Origin: a virus
IMG/VR virus record: IMGVR_UViG_3300043570_000570
Coordinates: 1-64,000 of that record
Length of the DNA stretch: 64,000 nucleotides
Reading direction: 5' to 3' (one strand)
The notes under the pieces were generated by a model. It saw only the letters and a program-made list of their open reading frames with translations. It did not search any database and was not told where the DNA came from. Every line of letters begins with the position of its first letter. Position 1 is the first letter of the stretch. The translations under genes and the position numbers were made by a program. This document shows, piece by piece, positions 5,287-43,730 of the stretch.

Positions 5287-5288
5287 AA

Positions 5289-11691: not shown

Positions 11692-11721
11692 CAAATATAA
11701 TTGGTTTTTTAATCTTCCCTA
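11692..11721 (-). promoter_or_regulatory. Possible promoter, strong -7, weak -33
   Basis: The minus strand carries TATATTTG at 11692-11699, 40 bases upstream of the 1932-residue gene. At the expected 19-base spacing the -33 triplet is TAG (11719-11721), not TTG. The -7 element equals that of the better promoters elsewhere in the window. Confidence 0.45.
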
Positions 11722-20700: not shown

Positions 20701-23700
20701 GTCAAAGAGTTTTTAAACTCCCCATAAAGACTGTTACTAGACATTCCAAACATTCCAAGTAAAGCACCTTTAAGAGCAGCTTTGTTTTCAGCAACATTTA
20801 TAGCTTCCTTAATTCTATCTTGCATAGATTCAGGAATCATATCTTTAAATATAATAAAGTCTGATCCTAAAATTTCTTTTCTGTTTGATTGTGCTTTGTC
20901 ATCAAACATACGCATAGCCTCAAAATACAAGTACTGTTGCATCTGTGCTACAAAAGAAGAAGCAAGTACAGTTTTATTTTTAAAGTTATATTCTTCGTAC
21001 GGAAAGTACTCTCTATCTGATTTGTTACCGTTTATAGAAGTTGCAAAAGAACTACTCTTAGCTCCTACTCGCATATTTTCTACAATAGCATCTCTCTTAA
21101 AAGAAATAAAATCTTGAAGTAACTTACCATCTCCAGTAAGGTTAGTTGTCTTGTCCCCCATAGAAGTTCCTATGGTATAGCCTGACATGTTAGCAACTCT
21201 TAATTCTACAGCTTCTCCTGCAGTAGTAAATCTTCTTGTACCATCATCTGCACGAAACATTTTCTTCATTAGGATACTATATTCTAAGAAGTTGTTTGTT
21301 TCAGGGTTTAAGTGACCACTTAAGTCATAGATACTTTCTACACTATTAATCTTAGAAGCAGTGTCTAACAAGTGATTCCATTCTCTTACTGCGTACTCTA
21401 AGTTACCTTCTGGACTAATGTATGAAGCAGAGTTAGAAATATTATAGATTTTTTCAAAAGCAGAAAAAGCAGAAGTTCTTTCGTTATCTAATGTAGCAAA
21501 CTTAAAATGTGCAGCTACATATTCTTTTATTGCTTTCTCTTTAGGACTAGAACCTAACTTATCTATCTGACCTTTAAGTTGCTTAGACAAATCAGAAGAC
21601 AAAGTCAATAAAGGGTTAGAACCTACAACAGGTGCAGAAAGTTCTGAAGGAAGCATTGAAATAAGATTTAACTTAAACAGTGCATTGTTTGCTATTCGTA
21701 CAATGTTTCTTGTATTGGTAGGAGTAAATACTGGATTTACACTAAACTGTAATTCTCCTTTCTTGTTAAACAACAAGTTAGGGTTTCTATTACCAATTAA
21801 ATCAATACCAAAAACATCATTTAAAAATTCAAAAACTGCTTTGTGAGAACTGAAACCTGTTTCTTTATAAATAGAGTAGTCTGTTAACACACCTGCAGAA
21901 TCAAATATAGCTAAAGTACTTTCACTAGAATCTGTTATTCTATATTTACGAAGTCTGTTAGTTACAAAGTTTTGATCAAAGTATTCTATAAGCTTTTCTT
22001 GAGACAAAGTATTGTTCAAGAAAGTTACGTGTTCCATTACAGTGTCCTTATCTTGAGATACTTTGACAGTTGTAGATTTAATTCTAGACTTAACTTCATA
22101 AGGAGATACAGTAGGCATAGCTGCAAACTGCATAAACTGTGCTTTTAAAGCCATCTGAGACAATGAAAGTGTGTCAGTAGACTTAGGTAACCTATCTATT
22201 AAGTTCTGTAACTGAGGAGCAATATCTAAAGAATCCCTTAGTCTCTGCAATGCTTCTTCATAGTTTATAGAACCGCTTACCTTATTTAAGATTAAGTTCT
22301 TGTTTCTAAGGAAGTCCCCTGCTTGTGGTAAACCAAAAGAATTACCTGTAGCTGTTATTAGTTCTCCTTTATTATTATAATAAATTCCTGGAAGAGTTTT
22401 AATAAGTTGTAAGATTTCAGGAGAAGCGAGTGTCATAGGATCTACATCTTCTGCATTTGCAAAACTTCGACTATCTCTAGTAAAGTTTTCTTCATTCATT
22501 TCATCTAACCTATTGTCTACATCAGACTCATTTATATTATTTCCTAAATAGAATACACCTCCTTTAGAATTCTTTTGATGATTCTTTACTACTTGACTCC
22601 AACCATCATTCTCTGCAGTACGTACTACTAATCCTTTTAGATTCTTTATTCTAGAATTTAAAACAAGTGCAGTAGCTTCATCAGCAGTAGTTGCTTCTAG
22701 TTGTAAAGCACTGATATATTGCAACATAGAATCCCTAGCACTTTCATATAACTTAGGAAGGTACACAGACTTAAGTCTAGTGTCAAGCAAGAAAGACATA
22801 TCTAACTTAGAAACGTTACCGTCTGCATCTGTAAAATTGTCCATTGCATCTGCTAAGAAGTAGTCAATAGCACTAAATATTTCTGCAGCCTCTAAAGCGT
22901 TATAACCAAAAGGAATAACTCTACCATCCTTTGCTTTGTATTCAATCTGGAAAGCTTTATTTCTGTTTAAAGCTTTTTCAGAAATGTTACTGACATTTGG
23001 TTTGTATTCAGATAATTGATTAGAATATAATTTTTCAAACAAACCAGCAATACCTTCTACTAATGCTTCTGGGCTCTGTTGAGCAACCTCTTGAGGACTT
23101 ACTATAAATAAATCTGTAAGAAAGTCCCAAATTCTTTGAAAGATAGTTCTTACAGGAGTCTCTACTATAGGGGGAACAACTTCAGGATTAGATTTATTTA
23201 AAGCAAAGTCTCTAAACTCTTCTGCAAGCACTTCTTCTATCTGACGATTAGTTAAAGAGTAGTAAGGTACTTCAGTACCATTAATATTAACAGTAGAAGG
23301 TCTAGATTTAACTGTTTGATATAAAGCAGTTCTCTCTTCTTTGGTCATGAATCGTTGAGTAAATTCATGCCATCCTTCGTGATAAAGATCGGAGTAATCA
23401 GATCCTTTGTATAAAGTAATTGCAGACTTAGTCCAGGTAGCAAAAGAACTTTCTTCTCTATTCTGCATGTTAGCAAACTGTAAGTGAGCAGACAAAGGAG
23501 AACTCTTAAACCAGATGTAAGAATCTAATAACTGTCTGCCATTAGCAATCTTACGTGTTTCATCAAAAGCAACTTTTTGTAGATTCTCACTTATAACTCT
23601 TTCTGCTTTAAATCCTTGAGCAACAAACTTCATTACTCTCTCTGAAGCTTTTTCTAAAGTTTCATTCTCCTGTACAAAACTGTGTATGATGTTTGCCTGT

Positions 23701-23990
23701 TCTTGTATTGGAAGATCTTTAAAGTTTGGATTGTTTTTATGTAGCTTCTTGCTATAAAAGATAGCAGTGGCTAATGTAGCTTGTTTTACATTGTTGTAAG
23801 AGTTTAAAAAGTGATTGTATAAAGGATTGTCTACGACTGTTTCTTTTCCTTTTATTTTTATCACCGTTTTATCTAGAGGATATCCTCCGTTTCTATTCCA
23901 TACAAAATAGGCAAAGTCTTCTCCTACTAGGTTACTAAGGTGAGTAAACTCAGCACGTATACTACTATCACTTAAATTAGGACAAATCAT
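11709..23990 (-). CDS. Giant virion RNA polymerase fusion polypeptide
   Basis: One open frame of 4093 codons. The core motif is SGSDFDIDKLF, with Asp1770, Asp1772 and Asp1774, preceded at 1731-1736 by RIPVQG and a conserved SMEYFRV helix. This is the metal-binding double-psi beta-barrel loop of crAss-like single-chain RNA polymerases (the phi14:2 gp66 family, related to eukaryotic RNA-interference polymerases). Before it lies a zincin motif HEGWH at 204-208. After it come a FTDNAGRTSG module (about 2625-2740), a degenerate zincin-like PEEAAHF (2849-2855) and a polyvalent-protein type module with HEIQND (3324-3329). The last 500 residues are coiled-coil rich. Family members are packaged in the capsid and, after injection, transcribe early genes. 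The length is about twice that of phi14:2 gp66, so several virion proteins appear fused. Confidence 0.85.
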   Translation of the reverse strand: MICPNLSDSSIRAEFTHLSNLVGEDFAYFVWNRNGGYPLDKTVIKIKGKETVVDNPLYNHFLNSYNNVKQATLATAIFYSKKLHKNNPNFKDLPIQEQANIIHSFVQENETLEKASERVMKFVAQGFKAERVISENLQKVAFDETRKIANGRQLLDSYIWFKSSPLSAHLQFANMQNREESSFATWTKSAITLYKGSDYSDLYHEGWHEFTQRFMTKEERTALYQTVKSRPSTVNINGTEVPYYSLTNRQIEEVLAEEFRDFALNKSNPEVVPPIVETPVRTIFQRIWDFLTDLFIVSPQEVAQQSPEALVEGIAGLFEKLYSNQLSEYKPNVSNISEKALNRNKAFQIEYKAKDGRVIPFGYNALEAAEIFSAIDYFLADAMDNFTDADGNVSKLDMSFLLDTRLKSVYLPKLYESARDSMLQYISALQLEATTADEATALVLNSRIKNLKGLVVRTAENDGWSQVVKNHQKNSKGGVFYLGNNINESDVDNRLDEMNEENFTRDSRSFANAEDVDPMTLASPEILQLIKTLPGIYYNNKGELITATGNSFGLPQAGDFLRNKNLILNKVSGSINYEEALQRLRDSLDIAPQLQNLIDRLPKSTDTLSLSQMALKAQFMQFAAMPTVSPYEVKSRIKSTTVKVSQDKDTVMEHVTFLNNTLSQEKLIEYFDQNFVTNRLRKYRITDSSESTLAIFDSAGVLTDYSIYKETGFSSHKAVFEFLNDVFGIDLIGNRNPNLLFNKKGELQFSVNPVFTPTNTRNIVRIANNALFKLNLISMLPSELSAPVVGSNPLLTLSSDLSKQLKGQIDKLGSSPKEKAIKEYVAAHFKFATLDNERTSAFSAFEKIYNISNSASYISPEGNLEYAVREWNHLLDTASKINSVESIYDLSGHLNPETNNFLEYSILMKKMFRADDGTRRFTTAGEAVELRVANMSGYTIGTSMGDKTTNLTGDGKLLQDFISFKRDAIVENMRVGAKSSSFATSINGNKSDREYFPYEEYNFKNKTVLASSFVAQMQQYLYFEAMRMFDDKAQSNRKEILGSDFIIFKDMIPESMQDRIKEAINVAENKAALKGALLGMFGMSSNSLYGEFKNSLTDYFTDSVQSLRTSFIEILSKGENKDLAKQFNRLYPKNDGSEYTDEEINSTLMHFATNYYAHQVELLHLLIGDPSNFKIKNGEWREVFKRLGAAISPGKQPRLDNQDINSWNNSSNGVLSRGLEELQRGKGKARAYDNNLNYVQYEDVKTFEYLDESTRDSIRESMRENYISALVSVKGPLTPGEVARETKKIDNNVNAVFAQDEEANAQAYASLDFIRFYLNSVGEWPPQLEKAYKHELEVFKAIKTYRESKSDADKAKVYNLIEKSNLGILTSLKLGYYGSPTDYTKYNVLGKYSVFPLSPSMVFDTDLEGLMLDYLDKGVDLATFSSGNKMSTPTKELSYYEKKNVKGVSTYVEGENGELKLTKVDPEAVFRLPIDGLRRQQYIAPKTKNEVTLSTQMVKLIFSNFYVAGEMNPQYAHLKDKINALQNAFIENVQVIVDVEKAKIYSQIGATVDDNGNITAINTMDFTIWLENEFDKKDVPTSVYSFLRPTLTNSFVFSLDAGVQRSLIDQIISSALSKRVLRPKLFGEAYIQLASTGFNKLGTRMKKPTTAQLKTIASGFNVSGLRDYRVENGVVQPADVLIPFNPKKHSPLLNLTWNGERIATLDRLNQALEDDAWVTEHSAKITIVGVRIPVQGLNSMEYFRVRRFLSNVGGPVMVVPPSIITKSGSDFDIDKLFMYEPELDDNGNLVSNPRLNDPEFRAQIIDNILAKNEFLAVKANSLQSLFASADFKEAGLVSKEIETLKKFIDNLKEAKKSGDTDTITEFKENIGPLNMKLSIAIERFKTLRSQDPNVVEMLQNLVAVNEVLADMKDISEKAIKGSASNNMISVISSILSEPSIFTEFTKPNTNIILPAIAEEYQKMKGKSSRISSSAMFLIETSVRIFTENNLGKKSLGVDAKVNALHKLYQQTGLRFKSNPEIIDLNKFYLLKANKNKNTKEIELGGLYDADGINLISDVINEFINGHVDIEKEDWINFFNADRERTPLILQMVINGTPVEEAILLVNQPIVQHYIRSSKITKVGKALGQKPADLFKDYIIPAMNFLNEKPVYVNGKIDESRTIEKVMSTPSIVEALSAENFNKTNYPPNPNVYRSPYDKIKANRNTKEGTKALKAQLAFIAQYYIVQTQNQMLLELTTNIDFNTANYRINTEFYSTAQGIIEASDNFNPEGINKILENSVVSPFNILEANQSVVDQVWDFFSLDIVKQHLHMVKNYYGKYWGRDKTVKNFNQLMNSMMLSFFQNTPELKPWYAKYGPDSGLLDTTAKNNLRSRFDTIFNNTEDSKLRTFANNNIILNNFTSIMVDGTTMFYPGMLTNEKDVDTVNAGQKDFSDGLNHPNPEVRGFFSDLANTVLLSQGSNIKYRSIHNFIPMEAQTDIMIELSIVLKKIKESIDNPETSEFLGNFLQKTTDIHSAIYWPGKLNEVVVTSKMKTFPDFTKEPVKESKITNGDNLAKAKTYAQESSNDASEPEFDSFDEASIIAERTKQKQVKTLAATTQPSTSVEVIPLNESQRFTRESAEKDTEYMYLFTDNAGRTSGSGVIDPNSWYAKKYGADKKYASKTQAVARGLKNVYPITTMVDDKRTQWTDDQFNEYKKIIDDEIETIKQASKNYNGIKFGAEMPFGKGAISNMKDSAPKIWNYLNIKLAEIGIDNTGDIPVSTQPSTTTQNNDILFGIDLQNQGQLEFHVNTLNVVAQFLENVGVEQRLVSEFLSQEGSVVEGAIAAANFIEGTVDIIDDLSKRPEAWNKLPEEAAHFWYRLLETNSPLKKALWESHQVALKNNKLYQTEYGKLVSKPEDLTEESIGQLIAESIKRIENKNANTSDYSFFKKFLDWVNSVIKNFKNTTIDPFEVAAMKILSSDMSDLMTWAEYSKLNNIVNFADVLTNQSVAPVDYTLIDDIGIAADNLLIVEDNTIVFKYGFVFRNSDYKQKYGDNSPYFSTQQELDNWVSTNVPEHNQRQKAIIQEVRDNEQFFDRLLNKSFRKKSKFLPKTLRKYFNIVDSDNLYTLEPWNVSQELEKITKKLSDEEKEQLVRTNGYTNIAPTLKVLPDLLQKYKKNPIVLSETIKLDGAKKQELSILDGIRKMIKSENPNLKSITAEDFVQQVHEWLNFHYLLGFADESTYLSYRVDQTFTNVKDRSSDEDFELANMTEAEIQALPFAERQRIATILGLTKQNPDVYHNKVSLRFNDKYHLKSGHFNKSPSAWGNLTYFYTGKNKWKDRVLLHEIQNDNIEFLREYKSEKVNVETSLGRYLQDLNKTLLANIAQIESPNSRVVTHFSGEFSTYKSLNTLLDSLKEMRIDGGQALATFKQRIAESIELYKSDDSVYTRPEKAQKLVDGTYTAKRKFAEFKKRGGIRSLLTESELAELRLILRELNQPIETAEWEYNALTVAEKKEIFKSRTIALREGINERFRKLYGDNAPLIALSVPAKRLSRNQRHLRGTNEEKLNESVDSLLAFSEIQMDKYLSKAINDTKRIYSMARNATTAYEFNLSLSKITANQFNTLIENFKYNQNLLVQSVKEQSQKDLNSGQNAEAKKAKSIIQYLEQTINGNLGEYQFSFAGDQSTEKKVVARLLKSPSFDEMLLGQTGYMGMFRWSSEEFLDYVKQVNPSLLDIDTSFLLFTEQQNTFTALKQKALDKKEELEKDYGKVEEEVKQTLEVEMNYFTPLVHHLIQKHINQYGKDFPMYFSGFEITKLTQNNDRTALIYAGKDEVNIVNKNEFIFNEVIFKQYQGERKLLSEEYDISVKELDKNTKGLYHNDLLIGKVTKGNNGLILEQDGIITETNETQISPIIKKIKVDNVGTVSGKYEKLEGSIRTLISKQEYEKAYQQATERRAKEIKYEAALNIGILDSSEEGINSGEDIKKLSDKELEQAIKKLNDYKKESKQNLDRVVNTIMNISNSKPIETGAIYNAMTQVSGVKLVWENKVEGLNGEPGGYKVDLSNYNYNTPVLYGLQTPQAVNLELTVPTVAMIPADMDSLENTEFEVTKCRED
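18669..18683 (-). other. DFDID polymerase catalytic loop
   Basis: The codons GAT TTT GAC ATA GAT (minus strand) encode residues 1770-1774. Three aspartates in a DxDxD arrangement coordinate the catalytic metal in double-psi beta-barrel RNA polymerases. The surrounding residues (SGS before, KLF after) match the crAss-like version. Confidence 0.85.
23367..23381 (-). other. HEGWH zinc-protease motif in polymerase polypeptide
   Basis: These codons encode His204-Glu-Gly-Trp-His208 in the context SDLYHEGWHEFTQRFM. The sequence is an intact HExxH, located in the N-terminal segment of the polymerase fusion, where it could process virion proteins or act during entry. Confidence 0.65.
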
Positions 23991-31767: not shown

Positions 31768-34236
31768 TTAATATTTAGATTTTTTATACATTCCTTTTTT
31801 AGCAGTCTTCTTTTCCTTGGATGTAGTACCGTCTACATAGTCATTGAATTGATTGAAGTAAAAAGGTAGTTGTCCATCAACTACATCCATCTGACCTTGA
31901 GACTTTGTATTAAAAGAAGGAACAAGGTTATTAATAAAAGCAGCTTTACGAGACTCACTTTGATCAAAGTAAGCTTTCTTGTTAATTAAATTTGCAATTG
32001 CTGCTTGTTTTTCTGCAGACTGAGCATCACTTGCTTGAGCCATTTGATTGTTATATACTTTATCAAAAGCATTCAAGTTTATTTGATCTGCTTGAAATTT
32101 CATCTGAGCATTGGCTTGATCTGTATTAGCCCTACTCTGCATGTCATAGTTTTCTCCAGTTTCTGAAATTTTTTGCTTAGCATCTAACCCTGCAATATAA
32201 ACATCTAAAGGATCTGCTCCTGCTCTTATTGCAGCTGTACCTGAATTATCTACGTTTTGCATCTGACTACGAGTATTATAAGTTTGAGAACGAAGATAAG
32301 GAGAATCGACTTCAGGAATACCATAAGCATATTTTTCTTGTGCTCGAGCAAGTCCCATGAGTTCAGGAATAGCTTGATACAAAGGAAATTTACCTGCAGT
32401 ATATTGTCCTCTTGGAGCAGTACCTGATTGATTGAATGTTATTTCTCCTGGATCTACTGGAGCATTTTCATACTGATAGTCCATACCATCCTCTCTACTT
32501 TTTAATCTTAACATTTCTCCAATAGTAGTATTTCCTATAATTCCATCAGCTTTTGATATAGCTTTTCCTTTATACATATCATCGTACACACCTTGAGGAG
32601 TAAGATCAACGTCAGCTAAAACATCTTTAAATTCTGGATTGTCTTTTAAATCTGCTAAATCTAAATAAGATTGTTGGAAAGTAGTACCTTGCTCCGTGCT
32701 TAGGGGAGTCATACCTAGTTTCGTTGCTATCTGATTGTATATTTTATTCTTCATCCCTCCTGATGTTCTATCAAGATCTTCTGTTTTAATATCTAGATTA
32801 GGATCATTTTTAGCAGCTTCTTTAATTGTGTAAAATTGTTTTTGAGCATTCATAAAGTTATCCATGAATTGATCTTTAGTGATATCTTCATTAGGATTTC
32901 TTTCTTTGTATTTAGCATACATTGCATCTTTAACTTTAGCAAACTCTGGACGATTAAAAGTGCTACTTAATTCATCAAAGTTTGTATTGTAGTCTCCAAG
33001 AGTAGTTTTCTTATTAGCCGCAGTTACTTTCATAGGTCTATTGTTTTCTCCCATGACATAGTCTCCTACCTGAATAGAAGGATCTCCTTGTTTTTTAATA
33101 GTAACTCCTGCAGGAACTTTATACTTAACTCCTCCATCTTCCATCTGTAAAGTTTGCGCTTCTTGAACATTTCCCCCATACTGCATTTCTGCAAGTATTT
33201 TATCTTGCACACTTTGAGGAAGTGCCTTGAAGCCTGCATTGTTAATGCTTGCACCATTTCTTGACATTAATTCTCCATTAGAATTTCCATTAAGAGCCTG
33301 TTGATCATTAAACAAACTATCAAGTATTTTCTGGTTACGTTGCATCATAATACCAGCAGTATCTTTATCTACTTGTTTAGCAAAAGGATTATCAAGAGTC
33401 TTCTTATATGATGTGATGTCATAGTTCTTAGCCATTTGAGCAAAGGTCTTTTTAGAACCTTCGGGCTTCAGACTGTTAGAATATACACGAGTTTCATCAG
33501 GAAGGTTTGTAGGTATCCCTCCACGCTCGTGAGAAGGGCCTGTAGCTATTTCTGTTTCAAAGTTTGGAAGTTGGATAAACTCTCCACCCTCAATCTCTAC
33601 GTTATTGCCCCCACCAGAAGAATAACGTTTGTTTATTTGTGCACCCATTTCTGCTGTAATTACATTTTTTCTTCCTGTACCTCCACTACTAGTACGACCA
33701 TACATATAGTTGTAATCGTAAAGAGGCTTAGAGTTTCGTTGTTGTATTGATTGGTTTACTGTACGGTCGTTTTTTAAATCTTGATTATAAGCAAAGGCTG
33801 AGTCTACCGCTAGTAATCCTAATGTAGGCAAATAATTTGGTTCAGTATCTTTTGTATCTTCAGGCTTTGTTTGACCTTCATTTGCTTTAGTACCTGTATT
33901 ACTATAAAGAAAATTAAGAGTTTTAGAAGCATCATTAAATGTTCCAGGCTCATAAGTAGTTCCTTCTGAAGTAATTGTACCTTCAGGCATTAAAGAACTT
34001 CTGTAACTTCCTTTAGGAGCAAAGGGTTTACCTAGTGTATTAGAATTACGTTGAGCAAAGTCTTTTTGTAATACAGCATTTAATTCTTCTGCTGTAGGGA
34101 TATTTAGATTTCCTTCGTTAGTAATTTGTTCTACTTGAGGAGAAACAAGATTATTAGGGGAAGTACTAATACCTTTATTAGGAATATCATCTATTCCTCC
34201 AGTGCCAAATTTTTTGTAAAGCGAGTATCGTAACAT
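31768..34236 (-). CDS. Virion cargo protein with SHERGG and MxxGG motifs
   Basis: An 822-residue protein. Residues about 205-255 hold a recurring phage virion motif: VEIEGGEFIQLPN, then GPSHERGGIPTNLPDETRV. MQYGG (351-355) and MEDGG (365-369) follow. Later KADGIIGNTTIGEML resembles the core of a peptidoglycan-binding module (DGxxGxxT). The C-terminal third is Gln/Asn/Ala-rich and the last residues are very basic (KEKKTAKKGMYKKSKY). It is the first gene after the terminator and promoter pair at 34300-34348. Role in the capsid as cargo or ejection protein is inferred from motifs and context. Confidence 0.6.
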   Translation of the reverse strand: MLRYSLYKKFGTGGIDDIPNKGISTSPNNLVSPQVEQITNEGNLNIPTAEELNAVLQKDFAQRNSNTLGKPFAPKGSYRSSLMPEGTITSEGTTYEPGTFNDASKTLNFLYSNTGTKANEGQTKPEDTKDTEPNYLPTLGLLAVDSAFAYNQDLKNDRTVNQSIQQRNSKPLYDYNYMYGRTSSGGTGRKNVITAEMGAQINKRYSSGGGNNVEIEGGEFIQLPNFETEIATGPSHERGGIPTNLPDETRVYSNSLKPEGSKKTFAQMAKNYDITSYKKTLDNPFAKQVDKDTAGIMMQRNQKILDSLFNDQQALNGNSNGELMSRNGASINNAGFKALPQSVQDKILAEMQYGGNVQEAQTLQMEDGGVKYKVPAGVTIKKQGDPSIQVGDYVMGENNRPMKVTAANKKTTLGDYNTNFDELSSTFNRPEFAKVKDAMYAKYKERNPNEDITKDQFMDNFMNAQKQFYTIKEAAKNDPNLDIKTEDLDRTSGGMKNKIYNQIATKLGMTPLSTEQGTTFQQSYLDLADLKDNPEFKDVLADVDLTPQGVYDDMYKGKAISKADGIIGNTTIGEMLRLKSREDGMDYQYENAPVDPGEITFNQSGTAPRGQYTAGKFPLYQAIPELMGLARAQEKYAYGIPEVDSPYLRSQTYNTRSQMQNVDNSGTAAIRAGADPLDVYIAGLDAKQKISETGENYDMQSRANTDQANAQMKFQADQINLNAFDKVYNNQMAQASDAQSAEKQAAIANLINKKAYFDQSESRKAAFINNLVPSFNTKSQGQMDVVDGQLPFYFNQFNDYVDGTTSKEKKTAKKGMYKKSKY

Positions 34237-34299
34237 GTTTTAATTATTTATGTTATTAACATAGAAAGTTAATAACTGCTTGAGTTTAAGCTAGTTATA

Positions 34300-34329
34300 C
34301 AAATATACAAGATTAAGATAAAAAAGCAA
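34300..34329 (-). promoter_or_regulatory. Bacteroides-type promoter for cargo/RNAP operon
   Basis: On the minus strand TTG (34327-34329) and TATATTTG (34300-34307) are separated by 19 bases. It lies about 65 bases upstream of the 822-residue gene. The TTG touches the base of the terminator hairpin for the preceding genes, so termination and initiation share the same 50 bases. Confidence 0.75.
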
Positions 34330-34348
34330 GGGTTGATTTCTCAACCCT
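34320..34348 (-). terminator. Intrinsic terminator after 50-aa basic gene
   Basis: The minus-strand RNA forms a perfect 8-bp stem AGGGTTGA / TCAACCCT with a GAAA tetraloop (34329-34348), followed by GC and six T residues (34320-34325). The TGA stop of the basic peptide gene is within the first arm of the stem. Confidence 0.85.
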
Positions 34349-34493
34349 GACCTCTACTTTTCTTGAGATAATTTTTGCTAGACTTTGACTTAGATGCCTT
34401 AGTCTTTGCTACAACTCCTTTTCTTCTTACCTTAGGTTTAACCTTAAACTTTGAAGATGAAGATGTATTTGATTTAGATGCTTTAGCTGCCAT
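34341..34493 (-). CDS. Histone-like basic peptide (50 aa)
   Basis: ATG at 34491-34493 opens 50 codons ending in a TGA inside the terminator stem: MAAKASKSNTSSSSKFKVKP, then KVRRKGVVAKTKASKSKSSK, then NYLKKSRGQG. It has 14 Lys and 3 Arg and no Asp or Glu, with Lys-Ala-Ser type spacing as in histone H1 tails and DNA-condensing peptides. It fills the gap between the 190-residue gene and the terminator. It could bind packaged DNA or charge-neutralise it. The composition is observed and the role is inferred. Confidence 0.7.
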   Translation of the reverse strand: MAAKASKSNTSSSSKFKVKPKVRRKGVVAKTKASKSKSSKNYLKKSRGQG

Positions 34494-34524
34494 ATATTTA
34501 GTTTTAGTTTTTTAGTATTTTAGT

Positions 34525-35097
34525 TTAGCACTTCCAACGTTTACGTGCTTGACGTATTCTGCTGTTAGGATCATTCTGTGTAGCCTGTGAAGATCCACGT
34601 AGTTGTCCTAATGAACGAGCACAATAAGATTTTCTACGACCAGCTGCTTTGCTGCCTGCTTTAACCTTACCTGTTACTGCTGTGCTTAAGTTAGATCCAG
34701 GGTTTGCTCTACGATAAGCCATAACTCCTTTTTGAGTCATGCCTGCTCCTGACTTAGTAGGACGATAGTTTGCTCCTGGTCCTTTAGTAGTCTTTGCAAT
34801 AGTTCCTCCTTTAGCCATGTAAGCAGCTTTAAGTCTTCCTCCTGACATAAACTTGTATCCGTACTTAGAAGCATCTTGTCTAGCCTCAGATACGTTTCCT
34901 TTATTAGCTGCTACAAATCTTGCCTTAGCAACACTAGTAGGCATCTTACCGCCATCAGCCATTTCACGTTTAATCTTACGTTCTTGCTTAAGCATTTCTG
35001 GAGTAGGTTTCTTGCCTGAGCCTCTCTTTGCACGGATGTTATCCCACAATCCTCTTTGTGAGTAAGATCCATCTTTACGTTTTATCATCTGTTTCAT
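34525..35097 (-). CDS. Small basic virion protein (DUF6321-like)
   Basis: A 190-residue, Lys/Arg/Gly-rich protein. Residues 17-31 (GLWDNIRAKRGSGKK) and the C-terminal block (SYCARSLGQLRGSS, then DPNSRIRQARKRWKC) match a small family seen in many phages and named, from memory, DUF6321. Between them are three Met-(x)-x-Gly-Gly units (MADGG 46, MSGG 84, MAKGG 94). No catalytic motif was found. The start overlaps the 737-residue gene by four bases (ATGA type). It is likely a DNA- or RNA-associated virion component; the biochemical role is unknown. Confidence 0.65.
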   Translation of the reverse strand: MKQMIKRKDGSYSQRGLWDNIRAKRGSGKKPTPEMLKQERKIKREMADGGKMPTSVAKARFVAANKGNVSEARQDASKYGYKFMSGGRLKAAYMAKGGTIAKTTKGPGANYRPTKSGAGMTQKGVMAYRRANPGSNLSTAVTGKVKAGSKAAGRRKSYCARSLGQLRGSSQATQNDPNSRIRQARKRWKC

Positions 35098-37307
35098 TTT
35101 TTTACTTTTGATTTAGCTAAGAATGAAGTTAGGTCATACTTTACTTTTTCTCTATCGAACTGTTTTGATAGTTGGTTAGCCAACTTTAATCTGTTGGGTT
35201 TACTTTCTACTCTACGAAGAATACTTGCTACTCCGTTAACCATGTCTTTATCATCACTGTGGTCTATCTTGCCTCCTCTTTCATAAGTACTAAAAGGTAA
35301 ATACTTACTAAATGAAGAAGCATTTTTTTGACCTTCTGATTGATCCTTTATATAATCAATAGCTTTTTTTTGGTCTGGAAATAAACTAGTTTTTCCTCGA
35401 CCTAAAAAAGTATTCTCTCCCTGACGTAGTTGATTTACTCTATTTGCATTTAATATACCTTCTGATGTATTATACATAAAAGGAGCAGTAGACATAGTGT
35501 TGTAATCCATTTCTGTTAGTTTACCTGTCCGCATCCTATCAATAGCACCATCTCCCAAAACACTAGCAAATTCTTGATCGGTTAATTTACCTTTTCCCAT
35601 ACTCATAATTCGTGCTTCCTCTGGCATACCCTCCGCAAACTGTTGTTTCATTTTATACTCAGGAAGGCGATCTCGCATCATTCTTACAGGCTCTACTTCA
35701 CCTTTAAAATAATTTTTAGTTACAAATCCTTCTCCCTGAGGAGTCTTTAAATTGTTCACGTAAAATTCAGAACCACGTAAATCATCTAATGCCCATCTAC
35801 CTGTAAGATCATTAGGTGTTGCTGCTTTATTAAAGTTTGCATGTTCTGTTCTATATACATTTTTATAAGTAGGCAGTGCAGGTTTACCTGCAATTTTAGA
35901 AGTTTGTACTACATCGTCAGCATATTTAGAAACTCCCTTGAGTATCGAACTACCAAAAGGTTTAATTGCTTTAGCAGCTGGTATAACTTGAAGTGCATTC
36001 ATACCAGCATTTAACAAATCGCTCCCGGCTTCAGCAAAATTACCTTGTGCAACATTAGATACAGCAGATCCTGTATTGCCTACTAAATCAGTTGCTGCAA
36101 ATGCAAGTGAAGCAGGATTAACCATATCTAATACATGGTCTAATGGATCAGCAGAACCTTTACGTTGTTCTGCCTGAGATACAAAGGAAGTAGCTTCTCT
36201 AGCTTTTTCATAATCAGATTTAACTTTACCTTGAGTAACACTACCAACTTTCCTTGCATACTGAGCAGCTTCTGCTGCTTTTCTATTAGCTAAGTCAGGA
36301 GTACTTACTTTAGTGTTATCACTATAGCCAGCATTACCTGCAGGACTAGTTCTCATGTAAGGTTTATCAACAATAGGAGTCCAGCCAGACCATCCTCCAT
36401 TATCCATCCGTGTAAGTGGGTAAGTAGGAGTGTTTTGTTGCACTTTAAAAGGTCCTGCAGTAGGCAAATCATTAGGACTGAAAGAGTAAACATTACCTGA
36501 AGGATCCATAGCATGTGAGTATCCTGCAGCTTTATCCCCCCTAATAGCCATGCTAGCAGTTGGATGATCCATAGCTTTTAACATTTTTCCAGTTTGAGGA
36601 TGTCTAGAATATGCATGATATAACCCATCATCTTCCTTAAGTTGAGAATAATCAAAACCAATAGGTCTTTTTAATGAATCCCAATATCCTCTTATGTCAT
36701 ACTGAGAAGTATCACTTTGTAAATTAGAAGGAAGAGTTTTATAAAATTTTTGAAATTCTGTTTCTTCTTTAGGAGTTAAAGAAGTTAATCCTCCATTAGG
36801 CATTATGGGTCTATTAGGATTAGGTCTCATAACCACTTGAGCATTGTCCCTTTGAGGAACTCTCATAGTATTATTATTGTTAACACTAAACTCGTTAACT
36901 GTACCTGCTACTCTTGTAATAGGTTTTATTGTATTGTTAACTCTATTAACTGTTCTGCTAGCTTGAGCAGCACCTATAGCTAAATTACTATAAGGTCTAA
37001 TTCGATTTGCTACTCTAGCTACTCCCATTAATCCTTTAGCAGTTCCTCCTGTTACTATATTTAAAGCGTCTAATCCTGCTCCCATGTAATCACCTTGAGC
37101 AATATTGGATGCAGCACTAGCACCTGAAGCATACATACCTATAGGCCCAGGAATATAACTAGCTGCTTCTACAGCCATACCGAATCCTGTACTTCCCCCA
37201 TTAGGCATCTTACGCTTCTTAGAATTCTTATATGCACCCTTAAGTCTTGAACCTGTAGGTGCATTAGAATTTGCAATTATAGAACCGTTAACCCCTGGGA
37301 CAAACAT
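35094..37307 (-). CDS. Virion cargo protein with MPNGG repeats and duplicated modules
   Basis: A 737-residue protein. The N-terminus (VPGVNGSIIANSNAP) is followed by a basic patch and MPNGG at 34. A Gly/Ala-rich membrane-active-looking segment comes next (SNIAQGDYMGAGLDALNIV), which recurs near residue 420 as SNVAQGNFAEAGSDLLNA. MPNGG (169) starts a module LTPKEETEFQKFYKTLP ... YDIRGYW ... HPTASM known from other phage virion proteins; MDNGG is at 301. A C-terminal domain near residue 485 begins NVYRTEHANF and GRWALDD. An ADP-ribosyltransferase-like fold is possible for it but unproven. It is likely ejected with DNA. Confidence 0.6.
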   Translation of the reverse strand: MFVPGVNGSIIANSNAPTGSRLKGAYKNSKKRKMPNGGSTGFGMAVEAASYIPGPIGMYASGASAASNIAQGDYMGAGLDALNIVTGGTAKGLMGVARVANRIRPYSNLAIGAAQASRTVNRVNNTIKPITRVAGTVNEFSVNNNNTMRVPQRDNAQVVMRPNPNRPIMPNGGLTSLTPKEETEFQKFYKTLPSNLQSDTSQYDIRGYWDSLKRPIGFDYSQLKEDDGLYHAYSRHPQTGKMLKAMDHPTASMAIRGDKAAGYSHAMDPSGNVYSFSPNDLPTAGPFKVQQNTPTYPLTRMDNGGWSGWTPIVDKPYMRTSPAGNAGYSDNTKVSTPDLANRKAAEAAQYARKVGSVTQGKVKSDYEKAREATSFVSQAEQRKGSADPLDHVLDMVNPASLAFAATDLVGNTGSAVSNVAQGNFAEAGSDLLNAGMNALQVIPAAKAIKPFGSSILKGVSKYADDVVQTSKIAGKPALPTYKNVYRTEHANFNKAATPNDLTGRWALDDLRGSEFYVNNLKTPQGEGFVTKNYFKGEVEPVRMMRDRLPEYKMKQQFAEGMPEEARIMSMGKGKLTDQEFASVLGDGAIDRMRTGKLTEMDYNTMSTAPFMYNTSEGILNANRVNQLRQGENTFLGRGKTSLFPDQKKAIDYIKDQSEGQKNASSFSKYLPFSTYERGGKIDHSDDKDMVNGVASILRRVESKPNRLKLANQLSKQFDREKVKYDLTSFLAKSKVKK

Positions 37308-37309
37308 AC

Positions 37310-38287
37310 TTATGGACGAATTGAATTATATAACTTAGCTTCAGCTAGTATATTATTTAAAGTTTTTCTTGCTTTACTCATTTTATCTTTGGCTTTCTTA
37401 AGCTTGCCTACATTAGCAAAAGCTTCCGTAACTTCAGCAGGTTCTGCTACTTTAGAAAGTTGTTCTGGATTTATTGCAGTTTGTTTTAAGTTACTAGCAT
37501 TAGACATGCCAGAGTTAGTGTTAGCTGTTGCTCTTGCGTTGTTTTCTGCCATAGCTTTATCCCATTGTTGTGGGGTATAATTCCAAGTTTCTGAAGAAGC
37601 CGTAGCAGTATTCTTAGCAGCAGGTTGAACTTTATTTTCAACTTGAGTTCCTGCTGTTTTTGATTTAATGTAAGACTCATAAGCAGCTTGAGTTTTAGGA
37701 CCCCAAGCACCATCTGTTGCAATATCAAAACCTTTACCACGAAGCATTTCTTGATATGCTCTTACTTTCTCAGTGCCTCCTCTAGCAAGAGGAGTTTTAG
37801 CAGCAGAAGTAGCAGCAGTTGCTGGAGCAACTACAGCAGCATTAGCTACAGGACGAGCTGCATTCTCTGCTTGAGCTTTATCCCAAGTAGATTCATTGTA
37901 CCAGTTTGCAGGACTTTCAATAGTGTTAGGAGCAACAGGCATGCCCATAGAAGACTCGGCAGTAATACCTTTAGGCTCAATAGCCATTACATCTTTTCTT
38001 GCTTCTTTAAGATCTCTTTTAGATACTGTCATACCATCTTCTCCCTTACGCATTCCTGCAAGAGTCTTAGCCAAGTTAGCTCTCTTAACAGTAGTAGAAG
38101 AGTAAGCGCCTTTATTGCTTAGTACCTTATTACGAAATGCAGGTACAGACATACCAGCTCTATTAGCTTGAGCTGTAAAAGATCCTGGTTTCTTAATAGC
38201 ACCTTTGATCCAGTTACCTCCAGATTTCATTTTTATCTTACCTCCGCAATTCATGCAGCCAGAGTAAGAATTCTTTAAACGATTCAT
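37310..38287 (-). CDS. Cargo protein with peptidoglycan-binding-like domain
   Basis: A 325-residue protein. The N-terminus has MNCGG and MKSGG followed by WIKGAIKKPGSFTAQ (26-40), a lysine-proline-glycine motif frequent at ends of phage virion proteins. Residues 173-207 (KVRAYQEMLRGKGFDIATDG, then AWGPKTQAAYESYI) fit a peptidoglycan-binding type 1 fold. It is flanked by two copies of WDKAxAENxARxxAN at 135-149 and 242-256. The middle is Ala/Pro-rich linker and the C-terminus a coiled coil. It may contact the cell wall during DNA entry. It lies two bases upstream of the 737-residue gene. Confidence 0.65.
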   Translation of the reverse strand: MNRLKNSYSGCMNCGGKIKMKSGGNWIKGAIKKPGSFTAQANRAGMSVPAFRNKVLSNKGAYSSTTVKRANLAKTLAGMRKGEDGMTVSKRDLKEARKDVMAIEPKGITAESSMGMPVAPNTIESPANWYNESTWDKAQAENAARPVANAAVVAPATAATSAAKTPLARGGTEKVRAYQEMLRGKGFDIATDGAWGPKTQAAYESYIKSKTAGTQVENKVQPAAKNTATASSETWNYTPQQWDKAMAENNARATANTNSGMSNASNLKQTAINPEQLSKVAEPAEVTEAFANVGKLKKAKDKMSKARKTLNNILAEAKLYNSIRP

Positions 38288-38717: not shown

Positions 38718-41700
38718 TTATGGATTGGTTTGTGTTATTTGTATGGTGTTGATAAACTTAAATCTAGAGTAAGCATCTTGTATAAGTCTTATCTTAGCAA
38801 AGTCTGATTTAATTTTATTCTTCTGATAAGATACAGACACAGGTCTTACACTTTTTGTATTTGGAACCTTATCAATTGGATACTGAGTTACTAGATCTCC
38901 CCATTGAGTTGACCAAAGTGGTTGTCCATTTCCTTGCGCTGCAACGTTCCAAAATCCATTAAAGGTATAAAGCTGTTCTCTGCGAGAGATAAGAGCTTCT
39001 ATGCCCGTTGCTGTCATTCTAGGATAGGTTATCTTTTGTCTAGTGTTACCGAACTCTTCAGGAATCAACTTAATAATACCAGAAGACTGTTCTTTGTTAT
39101 AAATAATCGCCTTAGTAAAGTTTGCTAAGTTCTTTTTGTTTGCGGTAGACAAAGAGTAGTACTCATAATCAGAGTAGTATTCTTGAATGTCTTGCATCAA
39201 AGTAACAGAGTTGACTGTAGATACTTGAGGGAATGAATTTACATTATACTCTAGTATGTAAGGATACAAAATTCCGTAGTAAGTCTGATAAGTATAAACA
39301 GACAAATTATGATTCCAAATACTTGAACCTGTTCCTGTATTAATGATAGTTTGAAAGTGACCTAACAAAGGAACAAAGAAGTTAGGAAGGAAAGAATAGA
39401 ATGAAATAAAGTTTTTAAGTTTAGGAGAGTAGGCTACTGTCCAAGACTTATTCTCAAAGTATGTTGGATTAGTTAACTGAACTTCTATTCTTAAGTTTAT
39501 TTCTTGGTAATAAAATTTACGATCCTCATAAGTTATAATACCCACTAGATCTTTACGTGCTAGATAATCTAGTTTAGTAATAAACACTCTTTCATATCTT
39601 TCATCCCATCCCATTACAATGCCTAATCCTGATTGTGGATTATCTATGTCTGCATCAGGAAAGTCCTTAAGGATATTAAAAGGTAAATTATTTTTAAACC
39701 AGTTAAAGTTATTCTCTGTTTTAATCTCGTTAAACCCTTCTCCTGTAATTTGATAAATGTGACCACGCTTAGCGTCTACCCAGAATGTTCCGAACTCGCA
39801 CTTAACATAAGCTTTGTGTTGAGTTCCTATGTAACCTAGATCTGTCTTAGAAAGTTCTACAGGTTTTTGTTTGAACATTTCTGCATTACCAATCTCTAAC
39901 TGATAAGGAGAGGTAGTGCTTAGGGTAATACGAGAGTTGTATACTTTAGTTGTATTTTCAAATCTAGCATATACTCTTTCGTTCTCTCCTGCATTCAAAT
40001 CTATTAAGCGACCTCCTTGTTTAGGAAAATCATAAAAATTACCAGGACGGAATACTCTCCAAGCATCTGAAAGATAGTTAGAAGCATTTGCAGGATCTGA
40101 ATAGATAACTCTGTTCTGATGGTAGGTAAGACACTCTAAAGAAGGATACTTTAATCTGTAAGGTAAGTTAGGACTTAAGTTCTGTGCAGAGTAAGTAGCA
40201 TTGTAGCTGTAGAAGTTGTCAAACTTAATAGGTACGTTTACTTCATGCAACCAATCATCAGGAATACCATCTCCTACGTTAGGGTAGAAGTTTTCTTCTA
40301 GATCATTTCTTCCATGACGTAAGTCTACGTTAATATCAGACTCTACATAAAATACAGGAATACCATAAGACGCTGTATAGAATACTCCCTTTTGATAAAA
40401 AAATCTATTAGGATCTGCATCTAAGTTATTTTTCTTTACGAACAAACTGTATATAGATGCCAGTGTTCCTGAGATAAATGCATTAAGTGTTACTCCACTA
40501 GTTGCTCCTCCAAATACTGCAGGAGACGCCAATAGTGTAGTTAACGCTGCTCCTACTCCTGTAGCAAGACTTGAAGCAATTCCCGCATTTATTTCTTCAG
40601 GAGACTCTCCTATATAATACGTAGGATATCCTAAGTTAGGATAAAGCCAATAATCAAAAGGAACATTATTTACTTTAGCAGGAAGGTTCGCTAAGTTACG
40701 AGTAAAGAAAGAATGTTTACGTTTAAGAGCAAACTTATTAATATAAGTATCTCCGCCAAATGCAGGATAATACTTCTTAAGAATCTTTGCTGTGCCATTT
40801 AAACTTGTAGTTACATCAACAATGTATCCTGTAGATACATATCTAATGTTTTCTATCTGTCCATACTGATTTGGAAACTCACGTTTAATAGAAGCATAGT
40901 AAGCTCTTGTATCGCTTTCTGTTACTTTTTCTGGAGTGTCTTCTAGATTATTTTCTCCTATTGTATAACGACTAGTATCTTGAATAAAAGGATACTCATA
41001 AGAAAAACCAGCACTTGTCTTAAGGTAAACTGAAGTCTCTCTTAGGCGATTATGTAAAGGTCTATCATCGTTTAATTCTACTATCTTATCATTAGCGTAT
41101 AATCCAATATCTAAGAAACGTCTTCTGTTACCCCTAGTAGTGATAGGTCTAAAACTTGTGTACTTACCTACTGAGTTAAACTGATAAGCAAAGTTTGTAT
41201 TAGGAATCAGTCTTTCTATTAAATCTATAAATATTTGATTGTTGGTTAGGATTGAAAGACCATCTGTTTTTAATTTAGTATTAGGATCAACTGCAGAAGC
41301 TGTAGTTTCAAAGGCTAAAGAAAGTGCATCTGCTAAAACAGCAGACAAACCGTAATCAGCTTTGGTTAAGAATTTATACTGAGGATGATCTAATACAGGC
41401 ATAAACTTTCCTTGCACTTTACCAAACTCTAATGTTTCTATTTTAAGTTCTGTTCCAATCTTAGGAAGTTGGAAGTGTGTGTCAGGTGAGTGAAATGTGT
41501 ATCTAGATCCAATAGTGTTAAATCCTTTGTGGGGACCCATTCCTGGGATGTTGTCATTCTTTTCTCCTCTGTCTGCTGCGTTGTACCAATCTGGACTAGA
41601 CTTAATATAACCATCTTCCCTGATATCATTGTAAGGATAGTTAGGATAGTAAAACTTCTTACCAGATTCAACATCTTCAAAAGTTCCTACATCATAAATA

Positions 41701-43730
41701 AGACCTTTAGCAATTACTGACTTATTGTTTACACGATTACCTCTTACTAATTCATAACCACAGATAAGTTCCTTAACAGGGATCTGATTATTACCGTAAG
41801 TATTTAAAGGATCGTATACTGTAAAGGTATTTAAATACCCTTCAAAGTCACTCTCAAGAATACGTACTCCAATAGGGTAAATTAAATCTTTACTGTCTGC
41901 ATGTATGTGAGAAATTGCATTCTCAGGAAACTTATGAAATCTTATAGGTTGTTCAGCTAGTGCTCCCCATACTTCTGTGTAACAAGGATAAGTCTCAGTA
42001 GACTCCCAGTAAGCAAACTCTCCTGAGTCTTTTACAGTAATCTTACAACTGTACTGAGCTTCTTGTATAGAAGGTTCATTACTAGGAGGTGTAAGTCCTG
42101 CAGTAGCTGTGTTATATACTTTCCAAGTAGGTAGATCTTTTTCTACAATACAATCATTGGGAACAGTAAATACGTCTAAACTAGATCCCTTAGATAAAGT
42201 ATTTGTATCAGAACCAGAAGCAACTCTTCCTGGAATATGGAATACATCTGTATACTTTCCGTTCTTTAATCTAAACTTAATTCCGAATGGATAAACTTCA
42301 TCTCTTTGATATGTACGGAAGAAGTATGCAATCTCTGGATTAGAGTAATCAAACTTACTATCAGCAGGCATCTCTACGGTTTCCCAACGTAACTTAATAT
42401 TGTTTGCAAGTAACTGAAAGTTATACTTAGGCGTTTCTGTTAAATCCGCTAACATTAACATGTCAGTTTGCTTATCAATAATCCCTGCACTATCATAGTG
42501 AGGACTGCGAATAAGAGGAACAATAGAAGAGAACGTAGAAGAATAATCTCCTGTATAGATTAAAGAATCTTTATTTGTAGTTTGGTTAACTCTATAAGTA
42601 CCTACTAGTTGGTATGTAGTTACTTGATTTATGTTTTCAGCTACTACTAGATTAAAGTAATCAAAAATAGCAGTACTGTGTTCTATAGCAACTCGGATAG
42701 ATTTAGAAGTCTCGTATTCAGTTTGCTCAGTAATAGACCTTTCAAAGATTGGGATAGGATTACAAAAGTCTACATAATCAGTAAGTTCTTTTCCATTCTC
42801 ATCTGCATAAGCAATAGAAAAAGAATATACTCCTCCTTTTAATACTCCTCCTGAGTTAACAGAAGTTGGATAGATATCTGCTTGACAGAAATCGGGAAAT
42901 AACTTTAGTCTTTCACAAGAGTCAGTTAAACAATCAGCCAATACTCCGCACTGATCTTTGCCATAAGGTTCTTCCAATGAGAAGAATCTAGGACTAATGT
43001 TCTTTGCAATAAAATAAACTTTGGTATTACAGTTGTCTATACGGTACTCAGAATATACAGGATAGTCTGGACTTAAGCCTAAACAACACTTACTAGACTT
43101 AGGTACACAAATTCCCTGAGATATAAAACGTTCAGAAACAATACCTGTGTCTGGAGTTAGAGTGTATTTATCTTTTCTAGCTCTAAATACTCCTACTTGT
43201 CCCGCAGGAAAAGTAATATTAGTCTCTAAACCAGAACAATCTATATAATTTACTATGTAAGGAGAAACAGAAACACTCTCTACCGAGTATTCGTAACAGT
43301 CAGAACAATCACAACAGTTGTCTACAACTAAAGGAGTAAAAGTACAACAACCCTCAGCTAAGTCTACCGTACTAGATAGTGCAGTACCTGATACACAACC
43401 ACAATCTTTTTCACTTTCTACCAGACTAGTACAGTCTTTTCCTAAGTCAGTAACCTGTCCAATCAAAGAACGTCCATCTGGGTGTGCTAAGAAGACAATA
43501 AGTTTAGATTGTTCGGTAATACTTAATGTTCCTGTAATTTTAAATCCAGGATACAAGTTGACAAAATCATAACAGATCTGACTAGAGGATTCATTAGTAT
43601 AGGTAGTTGAGTTACCATCATGAGATTGAACATTTGCGTTTAAAGCAAACGTAATCATGTTCTCCTTTATCTGGTAGTTAACTGAATCTAAATTTAACCC
43701 AGCAGTATTCTGATTGATTTTATTCTCCAT
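38718..43730 (-). CDS. Large tail protein (muzzle/stabilisation type)
   Basis: A 1670-residue virion protein starting MENKINQNTAGLNLDS, the usual start of the largest tail-hub proteins of crAss-like phages. Residues 90-145 contain a striking cysteine cluster (CCTFTPLVVDNCCDCSDC). The rest is beta-rich with many Tyr, Asn and Pro residues and a hydrophobic Ala/Gly stretch near residues 1055-1105 (SSLATGVGAALTTLLASPAV). It follows the ring-protein genes directly. In the solved crassvirus structure the corresponding position holds the protein closing the tail end, and annotation pipelines call such genes tail stabilisation proteins. No enzyme motif was seen. Confidence 0.7.
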   Translation of the reverse strand: MENKINQNTAGLNLDSVNYQIKENMITFALNANVQSHDGNSTTYTNESSSQICYDFVNLYPGFKITGTLSITEQSKLIVFLAHPDGRSLIGQVTDLGKDCTSLVESEKDCGCVSGTALSSTVDLAEGCCTFTPLVVDNCCDCSDCYEYSVESVSVSPYIVNYIDCSGLETNITFPAGQVGVFRARKDKYTLTPDTGIVSERFISQGICVPKSSKCCLGLSPDYPVYSEYRIDNCNTKVYFIAKNISPRFFSLEEPYGKDQCGVLADCLTDSCERLKLFPDFCQADIYPTSVNSGGVLKGGVYSFSIAYADENGKELTDYVDFCNPIPIFERSITEQTEYETSKSIRVAIEHSTAIFDYFNLVVAENINQVTTYQLVGTYRVNQTTNKDSLIYTGDYSSTFSSIVPLIRSPHYDSAGIIDKQTDMLMLADLTETPKYNFQLLANNIKLRWETVEMPADSKFDYSNPEIAYFFRTYQRDEVYPFGIKFRLKNGKYTDVFHIPGRVASGSDTNTLSKGSSLDVFTVPNDCIVEKDLPTWKVYNTATAGLTPPSNEPSIQEAQYSCKITVKDSGEFAYWESTETYPCYTEVWGALAEQPIRFHKFPENAISHIHADSKDLIYPIGVRILESDFEGYLNTFTVYDPLNTYGNNQIPVKELICGYELVRGNRVNNKSVIAKGLIYDVGTFEDVESGKKFYYPNYPYNDIREDGYIKSSPDWYNAADRGEKNDNIPGMGPHKGFNTIGSRYTFHSPDTHFQLPKIGTELKIETLEFGKVQGKFMPVLDHPQYKFLTKADYGLSAVLADALSLAFETTASAVDPNTKLKTDGLSILTNNQIFIDLIERLIPNTNFAYQFNSVGKYTSFRPITTRGNRRRFLDIGLYANDKIVELNDDRPLHNRLRETSVYLKTSAGFSYEYPFIQDTSRYTIGENNLEDTPEKVTESDTRAYYASIKREFPNQYGQIENIRYVSTGYIVDVTTSLNGTAKILKKYYPAFGGDTYINKFALKRKHSFFTRNLANLPAKVNNVPFDYWLYPNLGYPTYYIGESPEEINAGIASSLATGVGAALTTLLASPAVFGGATSGVTLNAFISGTLASIYSLFVKKNNLDADPNRFFYQKGVFYTASYGIPVFYVESDINVDLRHGRNDLEENFYPNVGDGIPDDWLHEVNVPIKFDNFYSYNATYSAQNLSPNLPYRLKYPSLECLTYHQNRVIYSDPANASNYLSDAWRVFRPGNFYDFPKQGGRLIDLNAGENERVYARFENTTKVYNSRITLSTTSPYQLEIGNAEMFKQKPVELSKTDLGYIGTQHKAYVKCEFGTFWVDAKRGHIYQITGEGFNEIKTENNFNWFKNNLPFNILKDFPDADIDNPQSGLGIVMGWDERYERVFITKLDYLARKDLVGIITYEDRKFYYQEINLRIEVQLTNPTYFENKSWTVAYSPKLKNFISFYSFLPNFFVPLLGHFQTIINTGTGSSIWNHNLSVYTYQTYYGILYPYILEYNVNSFPQVSTVNSVTLMQDIQEYYSDYEYYSLSTANKKNLANFTKAIIYNKEQSSGIIKLIPEEFGNTRQKITYPRMTATGIEALISRREQLYTFNGFWNVAAQGNGQPLWSTQWGDLVTQYPIDKVPNTKSVRPVSVSYQKNKIKSDFAKIRLIQDAYSRFKFINTIQITQTNP

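Follow-up and report, generated by a model that had tools for sequence, protein, structure and literature searches.

Crassviruses, the most abundant phages of the gut, store protein amounting to several megadaltons and expel it by way of a narrow portal and tail. In crAss001, cargo protein C1 is gp45, a virion protein encoded after the muzzle gene; its residues 425-552 bind the portal and residues 214-245 the tail barrel, and both segments were resolved by cryo-electron microscopy (cryo-EM; PMC10172136). In virions, gp45 reportedly has a size of 90.8 kDa and yields peptides from several of its modules, and no cleavage is reported (PMC10172136). The polyvalent proteins of phages and plasmids are multidomain proteins predicted to be injected together with DNA, with extensive shuffling of modules and zincin-like peptidases as a theme (PMC5512222), and the internal proteins of T4 carry an N-terminal targeting peptide of 10 residues that is cut after Glu, at gp21 sites (PMC9026906). 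Here we compare with these systems a cargo locus in the first 64,000 nucleotides (the window) of IMG/VR record IMGVR_UViG_3300043570_000570, a 116,182-base virus record of an environmental crAss-like phage, in which four neighboring genes repeatedly encode Met-x-x-Gly-Gly (MxxGG). We consider it probable that MxxGG is the joint between modules of C1-type (gp45-like) injected cargo proteins in the Crassvirales.

A Gly-Gly motif in crassvirus cargo genes

The four genes encode proteins of 325, 737, 190 and 822 amino acids (2,074 in total; Table 1). An earlier note on this DNA had reported nine copies of MxxGG in these open reading frames (ORFs), and all nine were confirmed in frame on the minus strand. 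The additional 'MSGG' that it listed is real, but reads F-M-S-G-G and represents the FxxGG form of the motif. Shuffling the residues 20,000 times gave 0.57 copies on average and at most 5, against the 9 observed (Poisson ~1e-8), which agrees with the note's estimate of well under one by chance. Met occupies position -3 relative to the Gly-Gly pair in 9 of the 19 pairs of the four proteins and in 0 of the 61 pairs of the 38 other listed ORFs of the window (18,600 amino acids); the note had seen no copy in the TerL, portal, MCP, polymerase or fibre proteins.

To place the window among its relatives, we collected 81 loci with the muzzle gene as anchor and counted as cargo every ORF whose start lies no more than 4.6 kb downstream of that gene; all remaining ORFs served as control. 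MxxGG occurs 342 times in the cargo ORFs, where 29.6 copies are expected, and is not enriched in the non-cargo ORFs (22 vs 30.1 expected). At least two [MFY]xxGG motifs are present in 68 of the 70 loci with enough sequence, at a median density of 4.04 per 1000 amino acids vs 0.21 upstream; a single locus holds up to ten copies, and the majority of copies are internal. Among 503 non-redundant Gly-Gly contexts in cargo ORFs, position -3 is Met in 92 (15 expected, z 20), Tyr in 52 (23 expected) and Phe in 42 (16 expected), and position -2 is Gln in 95 (28 expected, z 13). The 210 non-redundant [MFY] sites yield the extended consensus K-[M/Y/F]-[Q/A/K]-[N/D]-G-G-x-[I/V/M]-P. In the corresponding proteins of gut crassviruses (crAss001, DAC15, cr126_1, cr85_1, cr111_1, Carjivirus, crAss002 and cr3_1) the motif is mostly of the F/Y type, and the preference at -3 is lineage-specific among non-homologous sites (z 3.8, vs 1.1 for control Gly-Gly sites).

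Orthologues of the window proteins retain Met and Gly-Gly at ~95-100% at most sites, with the two intervening residues down to 10-46% at several. Around M351 of the 822-aa protein, for example, the percent identities are E40 M100 Q35 Y44 G100 G100 N45 V22, so that the motif is kept where its inner residues and flanks vary. The Gly codons of the motif drift synonymously, and we therefore conclude that selection acts on the motif at the protein level. Neither of the two outcomes that the earlier note named as counting against it, an equal frequency in non-virion proteins and a loss of the motif beside conserved flanks, was observed.

Module boundaries and start codons

Beyond the observations of the earlier note, the motif is located at joints between exchangeable modules: it lies at module boundaries, exchanges with start codons, is selected at the protein level and is restricted to cargo genes. 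In the 737-aa protein, the stretch from MPNGG (34) to MDNGG (301) is lost in related loci L003-L006, leaving a single fused motif. L003 and L005 lack, with clean edges, the part of the 190-aa protein that runs from MADGG to FMSGG, and residues 1-50 of this protein, which stop exactly at MADGG, recur in otherwise different ORFs. For the 822-aa protein, all five sequences compared are alike as far as the motif; beyond it, those of L005 and L006 are unrelated. An analysis of alignment breaks covering 307 cargo ORFs gives the same picture. At 60-100% identity, 100 of 218 internal starts and 86 of 256 internal ends of local alignments fall on [MFYL]xxGG (29 and 37 expected). Gly-Gly pairs lacking M, F, Y or L are no more frequent than expected at starts (21 of 218 vs 21) and slightly more so at ends (33 of 256 vs 21), and KK, SS and NN pairs show little or none. 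In the C1-like protein, the joint is predicted to be disordered: residues 349-370 of the 822-aa AlphaFold model, which hold both of its MxxGG motifs, have a predicted local distance difference test score (pLDDT) below 50 and are flanked by more confident regions.

The modules behind the motif exist elsewhere as whole proteins, whose start Met aligns at or beside the second Gly. MAKGG/TIAKTTKG (the slash marks the joint), whose MAKGG form is present in 10 of 10 crass loci examined, corresponds to M/TIRKTTKG in 93-aa proteins of other phages, and MKSGG/NWIKGAIKKPGS corresponds to M/SWIKRAIKRPGS of Thermus phage P74-26 (that is, MKSGG/NWIK to M/SWIK). Window gene starts are, in turn, internal in other loci. 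The start of the 190-aa gene, MKQMIKRKDGSYS, is found as FKNGG/LIKRADGSYS in L252 and as MAQGG/MIKRADGHYS in L080, and that of the 737-aa gene, MVVPGVNG, as MQMGG/MSIPGVNG in L058. A single polypeptide of 1,074 amino acids in L252 holds modules that are spread over three window genes, with FxxGG and YxxGG at its joints.

We also considered the motif as a relict start Met of fused genes and rejected this idea: it fits one module only, in other phages (MEEDG/ENWIK vs MAED/xNWIK), and leaves the F/Y forms and Gly-Gly unexplained. Large proteins of other phages (L241, L244, L246, L249 and L250) contain MEED/xNWIKGAIKxPGAF behind variable upstream flanks; its Met is apparently the start codon residue that the module had as a free-standing protein and has kept.

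In crAss001, gp45 has Gly-Gly motifs of its own at positions 209, 263, 427 and 562. These bracket both cryo-EM-resolved segments, and the portal-bound one begins at the 427 motif. In gp45, a distance of ~420 Å has to be spanned by 179 residues, among them at least two probable folded modules; these residues are therefore presumably unfolded, or the chain is discontinuous. Gene order and a weak similarity to the portal-bound domain of gp45 make the 822-aa protein the probable C1 of the window. Between the WIK module of the window and the GKFT module found in gut versions of gp45, homology is only suggestive.

Several observations weigh against assigning the motif to joints of C1-type cargo. That the four window genes are virion genes, as the earlier note called them, is deduced from their synteny with gp45 of crAss001. 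Gene order and a profile match of E ~1e-3 and 22% probability are what links the 822-aa protein to gp45 as a homologue; a Foldseek search with the 822-aa model gave zero matches, and iterated profile searches starting from the window C1 never reached gp45. The excess of motifs at alignment breaks is smaller at 25-60% identity (68 of 517 vs 46 and 115 of 549 vs 52), and alignments that run on to the next shared motif may inflate the boundary counts. The statistic for exchange with start codons is small (6 of 24 vs 1.2), differing Met content accounts for part of the lineage dialect at -3, and for the 190-aa protein the quality of the AlphaFold model does not allow its joints to be judged.

Possible functions of the joint

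It is well supported that the motif is the joint of modular cargo proteins, which are probably docked on the portal and injected. We propose that these proteins are strings of small, separately folding units joined by short motif-bearing segments. The units comprise a domain that binds the portal, segments of helix, and short modules, mostly basic, that appear as separate genes in other phages. Such joints would let the modules occupy different sites (portal, tail barrel and capsid), unfold successively and thread through the portal on ejection, and they may also allow modules to be swapped. The constraint on residues -4 to +3, together with a lineage dialect at -3, leads us to infer that the joint has a common reader. 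The odds are about equal that this reader is a docking surface or structured turn, on the one hand, or a processing protease, on the other.

As a docking motif, each copy would bind one common partner (the portal tunnel, the tail barrel, the complex of the virion RNA polymerase (vRNAP) or a scaffold) and hold the cargo during assembly and ejection, a role we put forward only tentatively. It would account for the constraint on both sides of Gly-Gly (K at -4, M/Y/F at -3, Q/A at -2, I/V/M at +2 and P at +3) and for the lineage-specific preference at non-homologous sites, although this dialect is in part compositional. The reported contacts of gp45 with portal and tail, however, come from folded segments, and its motifs have no reported density (PMC10172136).

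Processing is possible to much the same degree. A protease, for which a zincin-like domain in the giant cargo proteins is a candidate, would cut at Gly-Gly or behind it and so free the modules as separate polypeptides; this could take place before packaging, inside the capsid or once the cargo has been injected. The motif's position at module joints, in a predicted disordered segment and interchangeable with start codons, suits such a site. So do the leader-like, short basic N-terminal peptides that end in [MFYLKI]xxGG in 26 of 102 cargo ORFs (11 expected; for example, window 34236-34195). HExxH occurs in giant cargo ORFs of seven of eight sampled crass genomes, including gp47 of crAss001 and two ORFs of the window, and Iyer et al. 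2017 predict that zincin-like peptidases process multidomain injected proteins (PMC5512222). These HExxH stretches have no family match, however, and Pfam scans of nearly all ORFs of the window genome returned zero protease families. Pro directly follows Gly-Gly 7 times where 10.4 are expected, which is no significant depletion, and the reported size of gp45 in virions, with peptides from several modules, also argues against cleavage.

The zincin-like HExxH motifs of the window lie at 23381-23367 in the 4093-aa ORF and at 10812-10798 in the 1932-aa ORF, and metallopeptidase-like HExxH stretches form modules inside cargo ORFs of the distant loci L064, L067, L075 and L086. No S78 prohead protease was found in 24 crass records or in the Pfam scans of this genome (S77 was not searched in the other records). 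The C39 peptidase PF03412 was missing from the 24 records, with positive controls, and a host C39 is possible. A search for clan CE (C48) with PF02902 returned nothing, as did its controls. The 383-aa ORF directly upstream of the gene for the major capsid protein (MCP; ORF at 55187-56338) was tried as a protease and rejected; it is acidic, Glu-rich and probably a scaffold protein.

In a more far-reaching version, the injected cargo would be a modular polyprotein with [M/Y/F]xxGG as a lineage-tuned recognition code at each of its joints. A protease encoded by the phage, possibly a zincin belonging to the RNA polymerase complex injected with it, would cut there and free the modules in assembly or in the host. 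We regard this as rather unlikely. It is similarly doubtful that the motif has no reader at all and is a neutral element, be it a flexible linker or a scar of recombination. Gly-Gly is flexible and modules do exchange at the motif, but flexibility needs neither M/Y/F at -3 nor Q/A at -2 nor I/V/M at +2, other linker-like pairs (KK, SS and NN) hardly mark boundaries, and a scar in the form of a DNA-level site conflicts with the synonymous variation of the codons.

The packaging tag suggested in the earlier note, which would direct proteins into the prohead in the manner of the T4 capsid targeting sequence, fares worse, and we think it improbable. The motif is confined to predicted cargo genes and enriched within 25 residues of the N-terminus, behind a basic peptide. 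It is unlikely to be a tag, though, because the giant cargo proteins encoded alongside, which have counterparts in crAss001 virions, lack it, as do gp49 and gp50 of crAss001, both present in virions; moreover, most copies are internal and there are many per protein. Internal translation starts, in which the ATG of MxxGG would open shorter isoforms, can practically be dismissed: M-type motifs do use an ATG codon, but other lineages have F or Y in place of M, as in gp45. A DNA-level site or internal Shine-Dalgarno sequence was rejected, given the synonymous variation of the Gly codons and an SD-like GGAGGT that is not required.

As a joint, the motif provides a sequence rule for splitting cargo proteins that can hardly be aligned into modules, and predicts where structures are flexible or cleaved. 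It makes the question of C1 ejection accessible by point mutation or N-terminomics, and can be used for finding and counting injected modules in environmental crass genomes. Modular injected phage proteins are already known; a joint motif conserved across a phage order appears new, and a description of it was not found in the open-licence papers searched on crass cargo, proteases, linkers and Gly-Gly, which is weak evidence of absence.

The cargo locus and its closest counterparts

The window genome has the hallmarks of a crassvirus. Its muzzle protein, of the crass fold, matches PF25731 (Table 1), its ring proteins match CrAss_Ring_1, Ring_2 and Ring_3_4 (the last below cut-off), and its portal, TerL and MCP are assigned to PHROGs families of crass type. 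The muzzle gene is followed by a 131-aa DUF5856 gene and the four motif genes, behind which come an ORF of 573 aa and, finally, three giant ones. The locus lies just downstream of the muzzle, as for the C1 family, though with several genes instead of one. The 4093-aa ORF contains a DFDID-type motif, KSGSDFDIDKLF, of the kind found in giant vRNAPs, which we take to be where the virion RNA polymerase has its catalytic motif.

Table 1. Features of the cargo locus (window positions; aa, amino acids)
Feature	Position	Strand	Remarks
Muzzle protein (gp44 homologue), anchor of the cargo locus	38718..43730	(-)	PF25731 E=1.1e-38
325-aa cargo ORF: basic N-terminal peptide, MNCGG, MKSGG, WIKxAIKKPGS module, weak PG_binding_3-like stretch	37310..38287	(-)	PG_binding_3 below Pfam cut-off
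MNCGG joint motif (M12)	38240..38254	(-)	M 20/21, GG 21/21; x1 varies S/E/N/M
MKSGG joint motif (M20), immediately before WIK module	38216..38230	(-)	
WIKxAIKKPGSF module, residues 25-83 of 325-aa protein	38039..38215	(-)	Free-standing 59-aa protein in Thermus phages (P74p110)
737-aa cargo ORF	35094..37307	(-)	Segment MPNGG(34) to MDNGG(301) missing from several relatives
MPNGG joint motif (M34)	37194..37208	(-)	M 18/18
MPNGG joint motif (M169), within insert	36789..36803	(-)	M 6/7, GG 7/7
MDNGG joint motif (M301), downstream edge of insert	36393..36407	(-)	
190-aa cargo ORF: IKRKDGSYS module, MADGG, MPTSVAKAR module, FMSGG, MAKGG, DUF6321 module	34525..35097	(-)	
MADGG joint motif (M46)	34948..34962	(-)	End of 1-50 segment common to otherwise different ORFs
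FMSGG, FxxGG variant of joint motif	34837..34851	(-)	
MAKGG joint motif (M94)	34804..34818	(-)	GG 21/21, M 20/21
DUF6321 module, residues 99-190	34528..34803	(-)	PF19846 E=4e-10; free-standing 93-aa protein in pelagiphages
822-aa ORF, probable C1 (gp45-like): FGTGG near N-terminus, portal-domain-like region, MQYGG/MEDGG, variable middle, helical C-terminus	31768..34236	(-)	
Region aligning with portal-bound domain of crAss001 gp45, residues 205-330	33247..33624	(-)	hhalign E=9.5e-4, probability 22% only; confident predicted fold
MQYGG joint motif (M351), in predicted disordered segment	33172..33186	(-)	pLDDT<50 at 349-370
MEDGG joint motif (M365)	33130..33144	(-)	Following sequence swapped for an unrelated one in L005/L006
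4093-aa vRNAP-like cargo ORF	11709..23990	(-)	DFDID and HExxH (LYHEGWH), no MxxGG
1932-aa cargo ORF	5854..11652	(-)	HExxH (ILHEILHS), no MxxGG

The span 33142-38287 given in the earlier note holds the motifs, except that its start falls just inside the last one, MEDGG. Its four 'adjacent' genes are neighbors but not strictly contiguous: a 288-bp gap (34237-34524) separates the 190-aa and 822-aa genes, and L006 has a homing-endonuclease-like ORF there (L006 11923-12654). The DUF5856 gene, at 38304-38699, is shared by many relatives (PHROG 858, labeled as a starvation-inducible regulator). Within the 190-aa protein, the DUF6321 match exceeds the curated cut-off (40.5 bits vs 28.5), and the first 87 residues had zero matches in the phage collection. 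Two further observations concern related loci. By eye, an ORF in the cargo locus of L082, 4205 bases downstream of the muzzle, resembles a TnpB-type transposon protein. L007 encodes, at 3851-5749 (record positions 67851-69749), a phage protein of 633 aa in which a Cohesin domain is combined with a sorting domain for type IX secretion, which suggests export by a Bacteroidota host.

The closest counterpart of the window locus is crAss001 gp45, with which it shares the place downstream of the muzzle, a portal-domain-like region and repeated xxGG between modules. It differs in spreading comparable modules over four genes, in having M rather than F/Y at -3 and in matching gp45 weakly in sequence. 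Gly-Gly processing sites at domain boundaries of virion precursors are a feature of adenovirus and of the polyproteins of African swine fever virus, and the adenovirus sites carry a hydrophobic residue upstream of Gly-Gly. In the crass motif this residue is one position further from Gly-Gly than in the adenovirus consensus, and a related protease was not found here. With the T4 internal proteins, which are packaged and injected as is predicted here for the cargo, the cargo has in common a short motif and a short N-terminal peptide; the crass motif, however, is mostly internal, repeated and based on Gly-Gly. As to protease genes, the 24 crass records hold neither the S78 enzyme of a T4-type prohead protease system nor the C39 enzyme of double-glycine leader peptides.

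The polyvalent proteins may resemble window-type cargo: a modular architecture is observed here, and injection is predicted. Their zincin-like peptidases may have a parallel in the HExxH stretches of the two giant ORFs, which lack a family match. The crass modules are, by contrast, short and mostly devoid of recognized enzymatic domains; the passages of PMC5512222 consulted describe no conserved joint motif, and 'glycine' and 'crAss' do not appear in its text. At the level of single modules, the likeness to known proteins is clear: DUF6321 proteins and the WIKxAIKKPGS protein P74p110 of other phages are homologous to the window modules, at ~47-85% identity. What are independent genes elsewhere are, in the window, cargo modules behind a joint.

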